This document shows positions 5,353 through 24,129 of a stretch of 24,849 bases of DNA, in pieces. The notes under the pieces are model-generated. The model had not been told where the DNA came from. It saw nothing but the letters and a program-made list of their open reading frames with translations, and did no database searches. Origin of the DNA: a virus. Where the stretch lies: positions 1-24,849 of the IMG/VR virus record IMGVR_UViG_3300008267_010598. One strand, written 5' to 3'. The translations under genes were made by a program, and so were the position numbers. The stretch's first letter is position 1. Each line of letters starts with the position of its first letter.

Positions 5353-7302
5353 ATGGAATTAGTTGGAATTTTATCTAAAATAGTAAAAGAGAATGTTAAT
5401 ATAAAAAAAATTCTTTTAGAATATCCCGAATCAACAGTAAAAAAATTGGTTGACAAGTTTTCCAACGAAACCGATGAAACTGAAGATGAAATTAAAAAAA
5501 CAATTTCCGATTTCGAGAGATTCAAAAGTGGTTTTGATAATGAAGATAAAGATATTTTTAGACACTCATACGAAAAGGTTAAACAACTTGTTGCTGATAA
5601 ATCAACAAAACAAAAAACTAAAAAAGATTTAGAAGGATTGGCTCAAGAATTTGTTACAAAACATAAAGGTGCTGATTTACAACTTGTTAAATTAAATATT
5701 AAAAAGTTTTTTGAGTTGAAAACACTTTTTCCTGAACAAAAATTATTCAAAAGAGAGCTAATAAATTTTTCACCATCTGAACTAAATGACCTTGTTAATA
5801 GATATTTTGGTAGATTTAATGATAATGGTGAAAATGAGTTAACAAGAAGAATGACCGAAAAATTCTCTAAAGATAATCCTGATGACGATCCACTGACTGT
5901 AATTTTACCAAGGGTTAAAAGGTTTGTAAGACAATTTGATTCAATACCATTGAATGCTAAACTGAGTGCGTTCATGTCATTTGATGAATTTGAACATATT
6001 GTTGATGGATATACTGACGCTGGTGAGGATGAATATACTTTACCTGATATTGATTTAGATGACGTGGAAATAGCGTATGAAGATGATAACGTACTAATTT
6101 TTGCGCCAAATGAAAAACAACAATGTATCAATATCAGAAAAAAACACGCACCAGACAGAAGGTGGTGTACTTCGTGGGAAGGATCAAGTAACTATTACTA
6201 CAATTACAGATTGAATCAAAATTTAACTTTATATTATGTAATAAGTAAAAACTTACCTGAATCAGATGTAAATTACGCTGTGGTTGTTCTCGTTGATAGA
6301 TATGGTGATATGAGATTAGCGGACGGTACAAATTCGGGAAGATTTGCTGGTGCTCAAACAATTCCATGGAGAGAAATAGTAGAAAAAGTACCTACTCTAA
6401 GAGGAAAAGAAGAATATTTAAAAGCAAAACCTTTCTCAAATGAGGATATGGATAAAATGCAAAAGTATAAATCATATAACCTTAAAACGGACGATCCGGT
6501 ACAAGAATTAGGAAGTGTTGAAGAAGTTGAACTTTGGATGGAGTTGAGAGGACCTGATTTCCAAAATATGTCAAACGGAGTAGAAATATTTGCAAATCTA
6601 CCTGAAGAGTTACAGAAAAAATACATAGGACTTGGAACTGAATTGAGTGGAGGAATGGTAAGGGTATTAAAAGACGGAGCAATGTCTTATTATATTTCAA
6701 AGAAAAAAGAGAAACTATTAACCAAAACACTTAATCAACTTTCGTCAAGTGATATTGAGGCTATAAAAAGTAAGGAAATGAGACCTTACTTCAGACAACT
6801 AAAAAGAAAATACGCTGAAGAATTAACTAGTAAAGAAATGAGTACCATGATTCAATTGGAATATCCAAAAGATGATGCTTCCAAGTATATTGCTTTATTT
6901 GGATTTGAAGAATATTTTGATTCTATTCCTGAAAATGTTGAATTTATAAATATGGAAAATAAATCCAAAGATGAAATTGCTATGGATTTACCTGAATCAA
7001 TTGGTAGATTTACTGAGTTAAAAACTTTAGTCATTGATAACATGATCAAATCATTACCAGAAAGTATTGGTAATTGTAAACAACTATCGTTTTTGAATTT
7101 GACTAACAACCCTCAATTAGATAAACTACCTGAGTCACTTGTTAATTTGACTTGTTTGGAATTTTTCTCTATTATAGGATCAGATCCAAATATTAAAATA
7201 CCTAAAAAATTGGAAGAGTATATGACGCCAGATGAAGATTTTTGGTTGATACATTTCCCTGAAGATATGAAACAACATTGTACTGGTATAGTAGGATTTT
7301 AA
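5353..7302 (+). CDS. Large WC-motif and leucine-rich-repeat protein, 649 aa
   Basis: Three regions are visible. Residues 1-230 are charged and helical. Residues ~240-345 form a domain centred on DRRWCTSW (W271-C272), followed by a Tyr-rich stretch and YYVISKN; the same layout (TKWCVTQ...IIYVINRS) occurs in the protein at 21461-22195. Residues ~545-625 contain at least two leucine-rich repeats of the LPESIG...L..L.L/I type (LPESIGRFTELKTLVI, LPESIGNCKQLSFLNL). LRRs usually make protein-protein contacts, for example with host factors. The gene runs 10 nt from the next small gene, suggesting one operon. The WC domain has no function that I know. A virion or host-interaction role is inference. 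Confidence 0.8.
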   Translation: MELVGILSKIVKENVNIKKILLEYPESTVKKLVDKFSNETDETEDEIKKTISDFERFKSGFDNEDKDIFRHSYEKVKQLVADKSTKQKTKKDLEGLAQEFVTKHKGADLQLVKLNIKKFFELKTLFPEQKLFKRELINFSPSELNDLVNRYFGRFNDNGENELTRRMTEKFSKDNPDDDPLTVILPRVKRFVRQFDSIPLNAKLSAFMSFDEFEHIVDGYTDAGEDEYTLPDIDLDDVEIAYEDDNVLIFAPNEKQQCINIRKKHAPDRRWCTSWEGSSNYYYNYRLNQNLTLYYVISKNLPESDVNYAVVVLVDRYGDMRLADGTNSGRFAGAQTIPWREIVEKVPTLRGKEEYLKAKPFSNEDMDKMQKYKSYNLKTDDPVQELGSVEEVELWMELRGPDFQNMSNGVEIFANLPEELQKKYIGLGTELSGGMVRVLKDGAMSYYISKKKEKLLTKTLNQLSSSDIEAIKSKEMRPYFRQLKRKYAEELTSKEMSTMIQLEYPKDDASKYIALFGFEEYFDSIPENVEFINMENKSKDEIAMDLPESIGRFTELKTLVIDNMIKSLPESIGNCKQLSFLNLTNNPQLDKLPESLVNLTCLEFFSIIGSDPNIKIPKKLEEYMTPDEDFWLIHFPEDMKQHCTGIVGF

Positions 7303-11546: not shown

Positions 11547-13079
11547 ATGTCAAGAATTTTACAAATAAAAGAAAGTGATTTGGTCAACATGATCAAAAAT
11601 ATTATAATTGAAGAAACTGATTCAGAAGAAATTTTTTATGATTTAACACCTGAACAATATTATAAATTATTACAATCGGTTGGTAATCAAGCTCAAGCGA
11701 TACCAAAATTACCTATGTTCAAAGGAAAAAAAGTAAGGGTAAATGGAGGTTTAGATCTAAATGGTAAACCGATAAAAAGTTTAGGAGAAATTGTTGTAAC
11801 AGGTAGATTAAATTTTCCTTATACTGAAATTAAAAGTTTGGAAGGGGTTTCATATGGTAGCCTTGGATCTTATTATGGAACACCATTCGATGAAGAAATT
11901 AAAAGAAAAAAAAGACAAAAAGAGAAGAATGATGCTGATCAAAGAAGAATTGATGATGAATGGAATTTAATGGATACCGATAAAACTGGTGAAATGGCTC
12001 ATGCCGTTTTTTCTTTTATGGTTAATGAGGGTGATATTGATGAATTAAGTTATCCCGAAGTTGAAGAATTAATAGGTTTAAAACGAAAGTTAAAAGAACT
12101 TGAAGATAGGTTAGAGACAGAAGAAGATGACGAAGTTTATGATGAAATATATACAGAAATTGAGGAAGTACAAGAAGAGATTGATGATTTAGAAAAGAAA
12201 GACAATGATGTTTATGGTTTGATTGAAGATGGAGGTAGTTTTTTTATGACAAATTTCAGATCTATTCATGATGACACTTATGGAAATATTTACGCTGTTG
12301 GTACGACATATGATGCCGATAAATCAATGAGGGAGTATTATGAGGACCTAACAGATGATTTGTCCAATTTTAATAGAGATACTTTATCATATCACATAGA
12401 TGGTGATGAAGTTGCGGAATATTTTGAGGATATGGTTCGAGAGTGGATTTATGACGACCCGTCAAATTATGATGTGAAAAGAGATCTTTCGGATTATCAA
12501 GAAAGACAAATAAAAGATTCGCAACTTGAAATAGATTCTTTGAAATTAGAGGCGTTTTTATTGGATTATGGGTTTTTACCCCCATTAGAATTTGTTGTTA
12601 ATAGAGAAAATAACTGGGAATATACAGATGGTGAAAATAATAAAATAAATTTAGTTGTTGGGCAAGATGGTAAATACGATGTTTTCAAAAATGGGACACC
12701 AACTCTAAAAAACCCAATATATGATGAGGGTATCGATTGGGATGAAATATCCGATTTAGTGGAAGAAAGAAAATCCGAAATAGAAAGTGAAATAGATAGT
12801 ATTGAATATGATATTGAACAAATAAAAGAAGAACCAGAAGGTGATCCTGATGAGGATGATGTTGAAAATGAAGTCGAAAGTTTATTAGATCAAATAAAAG
12901 ATGATCCTGTAAGATGGCTCGATGATTATTCTATCGATTATAAGCAATTCATTGATATAAATAGTTTAATAAGGGACTTGATTGACGAGGGTGATTATGA
13001 TGTATTGGCGACATATGATGGAACATATGATGAGATAGACATCAATGGAGAATCTTATATTGTATATAGAGTTGATTAA
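11547..13079 (+). CDS. Large acidic probable virion protein with beta-solenoid-like repeats, 510 aa
   Basis: The frame can be opened by TTG at 11529, but the ATG at 11547 fits the upstream TATTTAT element. The N-terminus, ILQIKESDLVNMIKNIIIEE (residues 4-23), belongs to the TESQ/ESDL peptide class seen in other proteins here. Residues ~60-100 hold two repeats of the form G-x-L-x-L-N-G-x-x-I-K-S-L (DLNGKPIKSLG, FPYTEIKSLEG), as in LRR/solenoid phage proteins. Residues ~170-230 and ~405-455 are acidic coiled coils. The whole protein is unusually Asp/Glu-rich. I recognise this kind of protein from large phages, but no function is known. Confidence 0.75.
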   Translation: MSRILQIKESDLVNMIKNIIIEETDSEEIFYDLTPEQYYKLLQSVGNQAQAIPKLPMFKGKKVRVNGGLDLNGKPIKSLGEIVVTGRLNFPYTEIKSLEGVSYGSLGSYYGTPFDEEIKRKKRQKEKNDADQRRIDDEWNLMDTDKTGEMAHAVFSFMVNEGDIDELSYPEVEELIGLKRKLKELEDRLETEEDDEVYDEIYTEIEEVQEEIDDLEKKDNDVYGLIEDGGSFFMTNFRSIHDDTYGNIYAVGTTYDADKSMREYYEDLTDDLSNFNRDTLSYHIDGDEVAEYFEDMVREWIYDDPSNYDVKRDLSDYQERQIKDSQLEIDSLKLEAFLLDYGFLPPLEFVVNRENNWEYTDGENNKINLVVGQDGKYDVFKNGTPTLKNPIYDEGIDWDEISDLVEERKSEIESEIDSIEYDIEQIKEEPEGDPDEDDVENEVESLLDQIKDDPVRWLDDYSIDYKQFIDINSLIRDLIDEGDYDVLATYDGTYDEIDINGESYIVYRVD

Positions 13080-20441: not shown

Positions 20442-20467
20442 GGGAAGGTTATCCTTCCCTTTTTTTT
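20442..20467 (+). terminator. Terminator overlapping the end of the sigma gene
   Basis: GGGAAGG (20442-20448), loop TTAT, CCTTCCC (20453-20459), then a T-run (20460-20467). The loop contains the stop codon of the opposing sigma-factor gene and the 3' arm its last codons, so coding sequence doubles as a terminator for the plus-strand genes. Confidence 0.88.
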
Positions 20468-21009
20468 GCCAATTTCTCTAAGAAACTTTTTACTTTTGCT
20501 TTTGCTTTGAACAAATTTGATTTTGATGTACCATCACTTATCCCTAATTCTTGACCAATTTCAATATGAGACATATCTGCGAAATAATACATTTCAAAAA
20601 CTTTTCTATACATCGGAGAAAGTGTCTCCATTGCACTTTTTATATCTGCAAGAGTATATGGAGATTCTTGAATTTCGTCATCCTCAATATCGAAATCATG
20701 TCGAGAAAAATCTATTTCTTTCTTTTTTGGAGATCTTGCTTCTTTTCTCAATTCATCGATGATTGTATTTGTAATAATACGTTGTATCCAAGAATCAATA
20801 CTTCCAGTTCCATCATACATATGTAATTTCTGATAAACTTTAATAAAACCTAATTGACAAAAATCTTGTGCTTTTTCCCTATCATTGTTTGCGTATCTCA
20901 AACAAACTTGTCTAAAAATTTTAGGATATAATCTTTTGTATTCGGTATCAAAATTGATTCCCTCAGTTAACATCGCTTTATATTGAGATTCAGTGACAAT
21001 AATTTTCAT
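20449..21009 (-). CDS. ECF-type sigma factor with an N-terminal TESQ targeting-like peptide
   Basis: Residues 24-92 form sigma region 2 (RLYPKIFRQVCLRYANN, DFCQLGFIKVYQKL, SIDSWIQRIITNTIIDEL) and residues 119-180 region 4 with a helix-turn-helix (MSHIEIGQELGISDGTSKSNL). The ECF form, with no region 1 or 3, is clear. It redirects RNA polymerase to specific promoters. The N-terminus MKIIVTESQYKAMLTE|G is not part of the ECF fold and matches the HExxH protein at 22888. The T4 prohead-protease consensus (L/I)xE|(A/G/S) is met at E16/G17. I choose the ATG at 21009 over the one at 21045, because TATTTATTAGT precedes it exactly as in the other gene. Confidence 0.9.
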   Translation of the reverse strand: MKIIVTESQYKAMLTEGINFDTEYKRLYPKIFRQVCLRYANNDREKAQDFCQLGFIKVYQKLHMYDGTGSIDSWIQRIITNTIIDELRKEARSPKKKEIDFSRHDFDIEDDEIQESPYTLADIKSAMETLSPMYRKVFEMYYFADMSHIEIGQELGISDGTSKSNLFKAKAKVKSFLEKLAKKREG

Positions 21010-21013
21010 ACTA

Positions 21014-21020
21014 ATAAATA
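21014..21020 (-). promoter_or_regulatory. TATTTAT element before the sigma gene
   Basis: Minus-strand TATTTAT, then TAGT, then ATG at 21009. It is identical to the arrangement before the gene at 22888, in a 23-nt identical block (20998-21020). Confidence 0.5.
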
Positions 21021-21056
21021 GTTGTTTATCTAAAAAAAAATTCATATACTTAAATT

Positions 21057-21458
21057 ATGGAAAAAATATTATACATAGTAAGAGGTATTCCTGGTAGTGG
21101 AAAATCAACATTTGCCAAATCATTAGGTGGAACCCATTTTGAAACTGATATGTTTTTTATGGTTGATGGTGAATACAAATTTGATGGATCAAAAATAAAA
21201 GATGCTCATAAATGGTGTCAAGATAGTGTTCACACGGCGATGCTTTTGAATCATACTGCGCAGCTAAATAACATTATTGTAGTTTCAAACACATTTACTC
21301 AGGAGTGGGAAATGAAACCATATTATGAAATGGCCGAATATTTTGAATATAAAGTGTTTTCAATTATTGTAGAAAATAGACACGGAGGGATTAACGAACA
21401 TAATGTTCCTGAAGAAGTATTAACTAAAATGCGTGAGCGTTTTGAAGTAAATTTATAG
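21057..21458 (+). CDS. P-loop kinase (polynucleotide-kinase-like)
   Basis: Walker A GIPGSGKST (residues 10-18), then FETDMFFM (residues ~28-35) as the Asp-containing strand, AHKWC (about residues 50-54), and NNIIVVSNTFTQEWE as the Walker B-like strand. The ordering resembles the kinase half of T4 Pnk and NEDD4-binding-protein-2-like P-loop proteins, which phosphorylate nucleic-acid 5' ends. No phosphatase domain is attached. At 133 aa it is compact, with a possible substrate such as a 5' end or a small molecule. It runs into the next gene at a 2-nt gap. Confidence 0.85.
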   Translation: MEKILYIVRGIPGSGKSTFAKSLGGTHFETDMFFMVDGEYKFDGSKIKDAHKWCQDSVHTAMLLNHTAQLNNIIVVSNTFTQEWEMKPYYEMAEYFEYKVFSIIVENRHGGINEHNVPEEVLTKMRERFEVNL

Positions 21459-21460
21459 TT

Positions 21461-22195
21461 ATGTCAAGATTAGATAAATTAAAAGAGCAACACCCGGAAT
21501 TAAACATCACGGTTATTGACCTTATCCGTATGATCGACCCAACCGATACGTATAAGTATTGTGACTTTCTAATTAAAAGATTAAAACTTTGGTATTCAAC
21601 AACGGATATTCAATATGGTTTAGGTGTTGATTTATTTGGTGAAGATAATGTTAAAACTTTAAATGAGTTTGAGAAACATTGTAACGCAAAACGAATTGAA
21701 AAAAATGACATTAGTTCTCACGACGATTTTAAATCTTTGGAGGTTGAGGTTAAAAAGGCGGAAGAGATAGTAAGATTGAAAGAGTTGGAAAAACAAACCA
21801 AAAAATTATTTGATAATAATGAATGGTTGGTTTTAATACCATTAAGTTATGAAGCCGCGAAATTATATGGCACAAATACAAAATGGTGTGTAACTCAAGA
21901 AAGATATTGGGATGATTATATTGATAACTACAAAATTATTTATGTGATTAACAGAAGTACTAATGATAAGTATGCAATATCAAGAGACAAAACAGATGAT
22001 AAAGATCTTAAGGCTTGGTTGGCGGATGATACGGAAACAAGTCCACTATTGTTATCATTAAATATGTTAAGTGCAATGCGTAGAATAGTTAGTGGTTATA
22101 GTTCTAATACACTTAGTTACGGTAATAATAGTTATGATGGTTTTACGGATTACCTTAAGCAATATATGATTACAGATGGTGATGAATTACCTTAA
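21461..22195 (+). CDS. WC-motif protein, 244 aa
   Basis: Residues ~120-200 hold the same domain as the 649-aa protein at 5353: WLVLIPLSYEAAKLYGTNTK, WCVTQ (W142-C143), a Tyr-rich stretch, YVINRS and a basic/acidic tail with AWLADDTE. Residues 1-115 are helical and charged. The domain has no function known to me. Two copies in one window suggest a phage-specific module. It lies 2 nt after the P-loop kinase and 12 nt before the metallophosphoesterase, in an operon of nucleotide and end-processing enzymes. Confidence 0.75.
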   Translation: MSRLDKLKEQHPELNITVIDLIRMIDPTDTYKYCDFLIKRLKLWYSTTDIQYGLGVDLFGEDNVKTLNEFEKHCNAKRIEKNDISSHDDFKSLEVEVKKAEEIVRLKELEKQTKKLFDNNEWLVLIPLSYEAAKLYGTNTKWCVTQERYWDDYIDNYKIIYVINRSTNDKYAISRDKTDDKDLKAWLADDTETSPLLLSLNMLSAMRRIVSGYSSNTLSYGNNSYDGFTDYLKQYMITDGDELP

Positions 22196-22207
22196 AATAA
22201 AAAAAAT

Positions 22208-22861
22208 ATGAAATTTGATAAAATATTAACAACAGGTAGAGTATGGATTACATCGGATCCACACTACAACCACAAAAATATTTGTAGAGGTGTAACCGGT
22301 TGGAGGACGCTTGATGGGAAGGTACCGGATTGGAGTACCAGAGATTTCCATACATTAGAGTTAATGAATAACTCATTGGTAGATAACATCAATTCAAAAG
22401 TTGGACAGAATGATACCTTAATTATGTTAGGTGATATTGCCTTTGGTGGATTTGAAAATATAAAAATTTTCTTGGATCGATTGGTGTGTAAAAATATTCA
22501 TTTGGTTCTTGGAAATCACGATCATCATATTAGAAATAATCGAGAAGGTATTCAGGATATGTTCTTGTCAGTGCAAGATTATTTGCAGGTTCATATTGAT
22601 GGTGCTGATTTCGTAATGACTCACTATCCATTTGAAAGTTGGAATGGGCTTAATAAAGGTGTTATTCACCTCCATGGTCACGTTCATTTACCGGCAAATA
22701 AAAAGTGGGGTAAAGGTAAAAGATTGGATGTTGGTGTTGATGGTAATAATCTTTATCCATATAGTATAACTGAAATCGTCCATATGATGGATAAACGAGA
22801 GATCGTTCCTGAGATGGAGGGTGATCACCATTTAGACAATTTAGTTGGTGTTGTGGGTTAA
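22208..22861 (+). CDS. Calcineurin-like metallophosphoesterase
   Basis: Motifs in order: SDPHYNH (16-22; D17, H19), GDIAFGG (75-81), GNHDHH (102-107), THYP (138-141), GHVH (157-160). This is the dimetal phosphoesterase layout. Small members cleave phosphodiesters or phosphate groups and can process nucleic-acid or cyclic-nucleotide ends. Cytoplasmic, no signal peptide. A position beside a P-loop kinase suggests an RNA/DNA end-repair or nucleotide-editing role, which is inference. It ends inside an 11-bp hairpin. Confidence 0.9.
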   Translation: MKFDKILTTGRVWITSDPHYNHKNICRGVTGWRTLDGKVPDWSTRDFHTLELMNNSLVDNINSKVGQNDTLIMLGDIAFGGFENIKIFLDRLVCKNIHLVLGNHDHHIRNNREGIQDMFLSVQDYLQVHIDGADFVMTHYPFESWNGLNKGVIHLHGHVHLPANKKWGKGKRLDVGVDGNNLYPYSITEIVHMMDKREIVPEMEGDHHLDNLVGVVG

Positions 22862-22874
22862 ATCACAACACCAA
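22845..22874 (+). terminator. Long hairpin over the stop codon
   Basis: TTGGTGTTGTG (22845-22855) pairs perfectly with CACAACACCAA (22864-22874). The stop codon TAA (22859-22861) is in the loop. It is followed by TATATTTATTAG, only a short T-rich stretch, so termination may be partial. It separates the phosphoesterase from the next transcription unit. Confidence 0.65.
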
Positions 22875-22876
22875 TA

Positions 22877-22883
22877 TATTTAT
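22877..22883 (+). promoter_or_regulatory. TATTTAT element before the HExxH gene
   Basis: TATTTAT, then TAGT, then ATG at 22888: the same layout as the sigma-factor gene, within a 23-nt identical block (22877-22899). Confidence 0.5.
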
Positions 22884-22887
22884 TAGT

Positions 22888-24129
22888 ATGAAAATTATTA
22901 TAACAGAAAGTCAATTAGAATTAATCAATGAAGCATTGGGTGTTCCTGATTACATTTTGGATGCTGCGGATATGTTATATGATATTGTTGAAAGGGATAT
23001 CAGATCTATAGACACTATCGAAGACAATTACGAATTTGATGGAAAAATAAAATTTACGTTGGGTGATAAGAAAAAAATCAAAATTGATTCTTATGAACTT
23101 AAGGTAAATATTGAAGAAATTGAAAATCAAGAAGGTGTTTTGGATATACTTTCTATGGGTATGGCGGGTGATTTTGGTTTCAACAGAGATGTATATATGA
23201 AGGAAGTTGAATTTTCAACAACTTTAGGGTTAACAATAACATTTGCCGTAGGTGAAAATTGGAAACCACAGGAACTTATTGAAAAAATGGAGGAAGAAAG
23301 GGATGAGCACGTTTCATCTTTGGCTCACGAAATTAAACACAAATATGATAAACAATCAAAAAGATATAGTTTAATTGGTCCTGATGCAAGTTATCATGCG
23401 ACACAAAAAAGAGGGAATTTTGGGATACCTGCACTTGATCAAGTTTTTTTCAGACATATGTATTATGTTTCCGGAGTAGAAAATCTTGTAAGACCTACTG
23501 AAGTTGCTTATTCCATGAAAAGAAAAAATATTACAAAGTCACAATTTAAAGAATTTTTGGAAAACAATAGAGTTTACAAACAACTGATTGAAATTAGAAA
23601 CTACACCTTCGATGATCTTATTTCCCAATTGAAAGATCAAGAAGAAAGATTAAATAAACTACTTGAACACATCGGAGAAGATCCATCGGATATGAATGTT
23701 GATGAAAAAATAAATAGAGTATTAGAAGTTGCTTATATTGATTTTGTTAATAACAAAATGGAATTATTTGTAAAAATGACCGGACACGCAGTTGATGACT
23801 TATTAGAATTTGCTGCACAAGTAGGATTTATACCTCCAGGATCGGAGGAAAAAGTTAAAGGGCTTATGAAAACTAATGAAATCAGACAAAGGTTTTTATC
23901 ACAAACAATGAAATACGAAAAAAATCCAATAAAATTTTTTGAGGATAAAATTGAAAACTTCCAATACGTTGCAAATCAGATGATAAAAAAAATATCAAAA
24001 CTTTATGCCATGGCAAAAGACGACGAACAAGTTACTGAATCTATTATAAATTGGGAGTTACACCAGAAACTTATGGAAAAGAAGTATGGTAAAAGAAAAA
24101 TCCACACAAACTATATATTTAAAAAATAA
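22888..24129 (+). CDS. Putative zinc metallopeptidase-like virion protein, 413 aa
   Basis: HEIKH (147-151) in SSLAHEIKHKYD fits the HExxH zinc-binding helix, and E205 in RPTEVAYSM could be the third ligand, as in gluzincin-type proteases. The N-terminus MKIIITESQLELINE|A matches the sigma factor's and ends in a T4-prohead-protease-type site (I13-N14-E15|A16). The rest is charged and helical, with a coiled-coil stretch (~240-260) and C-terminal basic tail. It could be a packaged or host-acting protease. No signal peptide. The start follows a TATTTAT element by 4 nt. The protease call is by motif only. Confidence 0.75.
   Translation: MKIIITESQLELINEALGVPDYILDAADMLYDIVERDIRSIDTIEDNYEFDGKIKFTLGDKKKIKIDSYELKVNIEEIENQEGVLDILSMGMAGDFGFNRDVYMKEVEFSTTLGLTITFAVGENWKPQELIEKMEEERDEHVSSLAHEIKHKYDKQSKRYSLIGPDASYHATQKRGNFGIPALDQVFFRHMYYVSGVENLVRPTEVAYSMKRKNITKSQFKEFLENNRVYKQLIEIRNYTFDDLISQLKDQEERLNKLLEHIGEDPSDMNVDEKINRVLEVAYIDFVNNKMELFVKMTGHAVDDLLEFAAQVGFIPPGSEEKVKGLMKTNEIRQRFLSQTMKYEKNPIKFFEDKIENFQYVANQMIKKISKLYAMAKDDEQVTESIINWELHQKLMEKKYGKRKIHTNYIFKK

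Follow-up and report, generated by a model that had tools for sequence, protein, structure and literature searches.

Short, interchangeable peptides at the start of otherwise unrelated phage proteins are probably capsid-targeting propeptides of the T4 kind, greatly expanded and with an ECF sigma factor among their cargo; we give this reading a probability of roughly 0.78. Our analysis concerns 24,849 nucleotides of viral DNA (IMG/VR record IMGVR_UViG_3300008267_010598, positions 1 to 24,849), here called the window, in which two divergent genes carry the same N-terminal peptide, referred to below as tag A.

Two tagged proteins of the window

The first gene, on the minus strand (20449-21009), encodes an ECF-type sigma factor of 186 aa. 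Its identity, proposed in the first-pass annotation from the letters alone, was borne out by matches to Sigma70_r2 (E=6.6e-14) and Sigma70_r4_2 (E=7.7e-14), by PHROG 1740 and by a set of orthologues (L294-L351); sigma regions 2 and 4 are the only ones present (PF04542 and PF08281), as is characteristic of the ECF type. The tag of this protein, MKIIVTESQYKAMLTE, occupies 20962-21009 (minus strand), with a cut predicted before G17 from the peptide pattern and the orthologues. Among 50,697 phage records, the matches to the sigma factor were crAss-like or otherwise distant, and none came from a cultured phage with tag A.

The second gene, on the plus strand (22888-24129), encodes a metallopeptidase-like HExxH protein of 413 aa, whose tag, MKIIITESQLELINE, lies at 22888-22932 with a cut predicted before A16 from the junctions of its orthologues. 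The codons of the HEIKH motif (residues 147-151) are found at 23326-23340, and across 42 aligned relatives H147, E148 and H151 are invariant, as are E198, N199, R202 and E205 and, downstream, the motif ENxVRxxE. The protein had no match in Pfam or in the 50,697 phage records, nothing significant in a PDB sequence search, no Foldseek match at E<=0.001 and nothing in VIA-align at Z 5 or above. Within 23326-24129, the protein has a conserved C-terminal ESIINWELHQKLMEKKYGKRK that follows a low-confidence linker and is possibly a C-terminal tag.

On both proteins the tag is 15-16 aa long, within the 10-20 aa of an N-terminal capsid-targeting sequence (CTS), and the two peptides match as MKII(V/I)TESQ...(L/I)xE. 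AlphaFold predicts the tags to be low-confidence leaders with one short helix, lying outside the folded domains; in the sigma model, the leader appears flexible, with a helix at residues 7-15 and low pLDDT over residues 1-20. The two genes are divergent and 0.5-2.6 kb apart in the window and in 27 other retrieved loci that hold both (several of these being overlapping stretches of a single contig), and this conserved neighborhood suggests that the sigma factor and the HExxH protein have a joint role.

A swappable tag with a fixed junction

Scanning IMG/VR for the tag-A pattern gave at least 119 stretches. Among the loci retrieved, tag A heads 228 distinct proteins, whose mature parts form 82 families without mutual BLAST similarity. 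The pattern had 0 matches in 84,980 prokaryotic species genomes (257 Gb), and in six large contigs (~457,000 residues) all 34 occurrences of its core were N-terminal and 0 were internal. The first-pass suggestion of a movable tag thus holds across these unrelated families, and it extends to exchanges of tags between orthologues and to polyproteins with internal tags; the reading of the peptide as a strictly N-terminal, swappable tag of viral proteins is strongly supported. The cargoes with recognized domains include ECF sigma factors, a phage lysozyme, a cell-wall hydrolase and a DHH protein, and the tagged genes lie mostly outside the head cluster. A pterin dehydratase (L117), one of the 82 families, was dropped as cargo since its tag match is probably due to chance, and an ADP-ribosyltransferase-like cargo (L205) is not claimed, its best PARP match having only E=0.019. 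The string MKIIITESQ did not occur in the literature searched.

Both window tags had been noted to end like the cleavage sites of the T4 prohead protease gp21, as LTE|G in the sigma factor and INE|A in the HExxH protein, and the orthologues, with P1=E fixed, strongly support this gp21-type junction in both proteins. Among 61 distinct N-termini of HExxH orthologues, P1 is E in 61/61, P3 is I or L in 60/61 and P1' is A in 58/61. The N-terminal peptides of these relatives vary in length and are of at least five kinds (MAKIIITEKQMDLMVTQLLSE, MELNKIIKKVLRE and MKDLIKKLLRE are among those that replace tag A), and the mature A(L/V)GVP starts directly after (I/L)xE although the preceding tag varies. 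In the sigma orthologues, P1 is Glu in 26/26 by a count made by eye, and (L/I)xE is retained just ahead of the sigma domain while the tags differ, with lengths from 15 to 27 residues or more. In L348, a sigma orthologue, the tag is one of Flavobacterium phage immuto, MENFDLKKFLVENKL. Others are polyproteins: L335 consists of tag A, a domain, a second kind of tag (tag B) and sigma, and six more (L320, L326, L328, L332, L333, L346) of tag A, a hydrophobic domain (ILNTIADIVGIFDPTGIVDIGNAISYW...), which had no match in Pfam, a second (L/I)xE junction and then sigma.

Over all tag-A families, weighted by family, 59% have (L/I)xE with its E at about residues 12-19, the figure for shuffles being 22+/-3.6% and that for control windows 8-18%. 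The P1' residues (S, D, E, N, A, Q) are broader than a strict A/G. Thirteen of the 82 families lack (L/I/V/M/F)xE by residue 28, and nine of these have an RR motif instead; families 13, 15, 16, 31, 37, 53 and 69, of about 100 aa, show the RR motif and no (L/I)xE, and many contain DPC(D/N)(Y/F). The families without a cut site suggest that docking and cutting reside in separable parts of the tag, as was found in T4 IPIII (PMC9026906).

Tag B, MKKIIKLTESDLxRIVKRVIKE, was found on 34 proteins in 33 clusters. In the window it heads a 510-aa protein (11547-13079, plus strand; tag MSRILQIKESDLVNMIKNIIIE at 11547-11612, recovered with the tag-B regular expression), besides which it heads 33 unrelated families. 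P1 is E in 34/35, although E was no search requirement. A weaker candidate, from sequence only, lies at 5353-5391 (plus strand), where a 649-aa protein may have a short tag, MELVGILSKIVKE, similar to the MELNKIIKKVLRE of an HExxH orthologue. A charged protein encoded at 12-830 of the window contains FTENEIIDIIEQIVMEE, which is internal and resembles tag B; the C-terminus of this protein, EEFDRMKTLMGY, resembles the scaffold C-terminus of relatives, YENPQFLRMKDLMGKLK.

Head genes are absent from the 24.8 kb fragment that makes up the window, so the gp21-like protease called for by the first-pass annotation was found not in it but in related tag-bearing records, for example at 69583-70293 of G001. 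The gp21-type prohead protease (PF03420) is present in 11/20 and 3/16 tag-bearing records, many of which are fragments. When 13 records were tested for both the gp23-type capsid gene and gp21, nine had both and four had neither; because the two genes are present or absent together, the best explanation for an absent protease is that the record lacks the head cluster. The capsid propeptide ends in QAS(F/H/Y)LINE|A in six of six related contigs, and the HExxH and lysozyme tags share this LINE|A or INE|A ending. In one 269 kb record (IMGVR 3300032296_003307), the gp21-type protease and the gp23-type capsid gene each occur twice, at about 31-35 kb and 233-238 kb, so that it may have two head clusters or be a chimeric assembly.

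An alternative that we consider unlikely is that the tag docks its carrier to some other phage or host structure, such as a membrane, a replication factory, the host RNA polymerase or a phage protease that is not in the head, with (L/I)xE being part of a docking helix. Such docking would accommodate the 13 families without a cut site, the many cargoes that are small proteins of unknown kind, and residue L/I13, which is conserved in 91% of the tag-A families even where no E follows. It accounts poorly for sigma and HExxH orthologues in which the tags vary in sequence and length but E and (L/I) stay fixed at the mature start, for a capsid maturation site with the same LINE|A, and for polyproteins in which a further tag precedes the sigma domain.

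The 23-nt block and the TATTTAT element

The two gene starts share an identical block of 23 nt, at 20998-21020 on the minus strand and 22877-22899 on the plus strand, both reading TATTTATTAGTATGAAAATTATT. The degenerate pattern ATGAARATHATHRTHACNGARWSNCAR, which encodes MKII(I/V)TE(S/x)Q, matches exactly these two sites in the record, which is the window itself, whereas 100 dinucleotide shuffles gave a mean of 0.00. The block had been described as a shared start cassette; the identity stands, but the single copied unit does not, and the block is better described as two independent things, one a promoter-like element and the other a tag conserved as protein. The first of these is TATTTAT, located at 21014-21020 (minus strand) before the sigma gene and at 22877-22883 (plus strand) before the HExxH gene.

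This heptamer is found 11-13 nt ahead of many genes in these phages. Each of five large related contigs has 47-79 genes with the heptamer 8-22 nt ahead of the start, where about 2-3 are expected; a sixth has 20, with 3.0 expected. Two spacings occur: in one, the start codon occupies +11 to +13, and in the other AAA stands there and the ATG follows later. No conserved -35 accompanies it. The excess of counts and the two spacings indicate a promoter-like element that is distinct from the tag. In the window, TATTTAT occurs at 22877, 21014-21020 (minus strand), 11534 (ahead of the tag-B gene), 5330 and 24150; there and in related genomes (G001-G009), dozens of genes per genome have it at 11-13 or 19-24 nt from the start. 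One of its spacing classes would yield leaderless mRNAs. The T4 late box, TATAAATA, reads TATTTATA on the opposite strand.

A recent gene conversion or shuffling of this stretch of DNA, with a peptide devoid of function, would fit a block that covers both the promoter-like element and the start codons, and when tagged genes of unrelated families are compared in pairs, 259 of the 24,887 pairs (1.0%) have identical runs of 23 nt or more across the start. Since TATTTAT is common upstream and the peptide is shared, such identity is not rare between tagged genes, and its exactness in the window is a by-product. The codons speak for the protein: Ser8 is TCA, TCT or AGT and thus drawn from two serine codon boxes, Ile is ATA, ATT or ATC, and the two window genes themselves differ synonymously just past the block (Ser8 being TCT in one and AGT in the other), which indicates that selection acts on the peptide. 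Moreover, over half of the tagged genes keep the tag without TATTTAT, which is present at -13 to -11 in only 91/227, and many untagged genes are also preceded by it. The 23-nt identity is therefore no copied cassette, codon diversity contradicting conversion as its source, and a functionless peptide spread in this way is very improbable. Equally improbable is a role of the peptide in setting the amounts of early proteins, as a degron or as an element of translation start; such a role would suit the A/T-rich start codons and the predicted flexibility of the leader but leaves unexplained why the (L/I)xE junction is fixed, why polyproteins have internal tags, why tags are exchanged for unrelated ones and why protein-level conservation extends to residues 13-16.

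Proposed route and comparison with known systems

What the sequences themselves show is a modular tag with an (L/I)xE junction and, in related genomes, the protease and the capsid site. In the capsid-targeting scheme that we propose, MKIIITESQ-x-x-x-(L/I)-x-E would be a head-targeting propeptide in a lineage of large T4-like phages. The peptide would pull its carrier protein into the assembling prohead core, where the gp21-type prohead protease of the phage would cut after the Glu of (L/I)xE, freeing the mature protein in the head for delivery to the host together with the DNA. The cargoes of the window would be the ECF sigma factor and the putative HExxH metallopeptidase, and the delivered sigma factor would confer on the host RNA polymerase a promoter specificity proper to the incoming genome. 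Natural tag swaps lend indirect support to the idea that the peptide might suffice to bring a foreign protein into the head. Packaging, cleavage, ejection or injection, and this effect on the host polymerase are what we infer from the sequences; virion proteomics of a phage with tag A was sought in the literature and none was found. For a bolder version, the odds appear even: in a widespread group of large uncultured phages, interchangeable tags of at least three classes, some of them internal to polyproteins, would load dozens of proteins from each genome into the head, and the injected sigma factor would seize the polymerase at once.

If the capsid-targeting reading is correct, gene starts of this type would mark virion cargo by sequence alone and would allow a listing of injected proteins in uncultured large phages that does not depend on their function. 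A packaged sigma factor would join the known routes by which phages start transcription, and the tags would offer natural, swappable packaging signals for the engineering of T4-type heads.

The closest parallel is T4, in which internal proteins are loaded by N-terminal propeptides of 10-19 residues and gp21 cuts after L/I-X-E (PMC9026906). The tags described here resemble those of IPI, IPII, IPIII and Alt in being short N-terminal propeptides on unrelated proteins with an (L/I)xE cut, and the phages that bear them have a gp21-type protease and a gp23-type capsid. T4 IPI starts with MKTFKEFTSTTTPVSTITE|A, the cut position being presumed from the known consensus, and our tags resemble it only in MK, in a middle part prone to form a helix and in (L/I)xE|A; we claim no homology to the T4 CTS. 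T4 has a handful of cargoes, whereas we found about eighty families with tag A and over thirty with tag B, several classes of tags, their exchange between orthologues and internal tags in polyproteins.

Flavobacterium phage immuto (NC_055915) has a T4-like head with gp21 and gp23 and recurrent N-terminal peptides of its own, among them MKKSQLxxIIKxEL, and it puts the MENFDLKKFLVENKL tag on four of its proteins. Its recurrent N-termini (L210-L213; at 1803, 25061 and 102294-123576) head unrelated proteins, mostly encoded beside terminase and head genes, and one of them resembles the C-terminus of its scaffold, RWQKLAGIIK. In the closest cultured head relatives, the MKIIITESQ tag is absent from the whole of immuto and from 17.6 kb of Mel-JY01, and the main text of the immuto paper contains no virion proteomics.

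In the head proteins of SPN3US and phiKZ, a gp21-like protease (gp245 and gp175, respectively) cuts after a short motif ending in Glu, and a diverged pair of giant-phage paralogues shares an identical N-terminus of 15 residues (PMC5694885). Most propeptides of these phages differ from ours in exceeding 100 residues, and their virions carry an RNA polymerase, whereas the transcription cargo here is a sigma factor. A phage sigma factor packaged in the virion was not directly reported in the literature searched. N4 and phiKZ-like phages carry RNA polymerases in their virions, and the parallel is that phage transcription could begin at once if a transcription factor arrived along with the genome; the difference is that here a sigma subunit would redirect the polymerase of the host.
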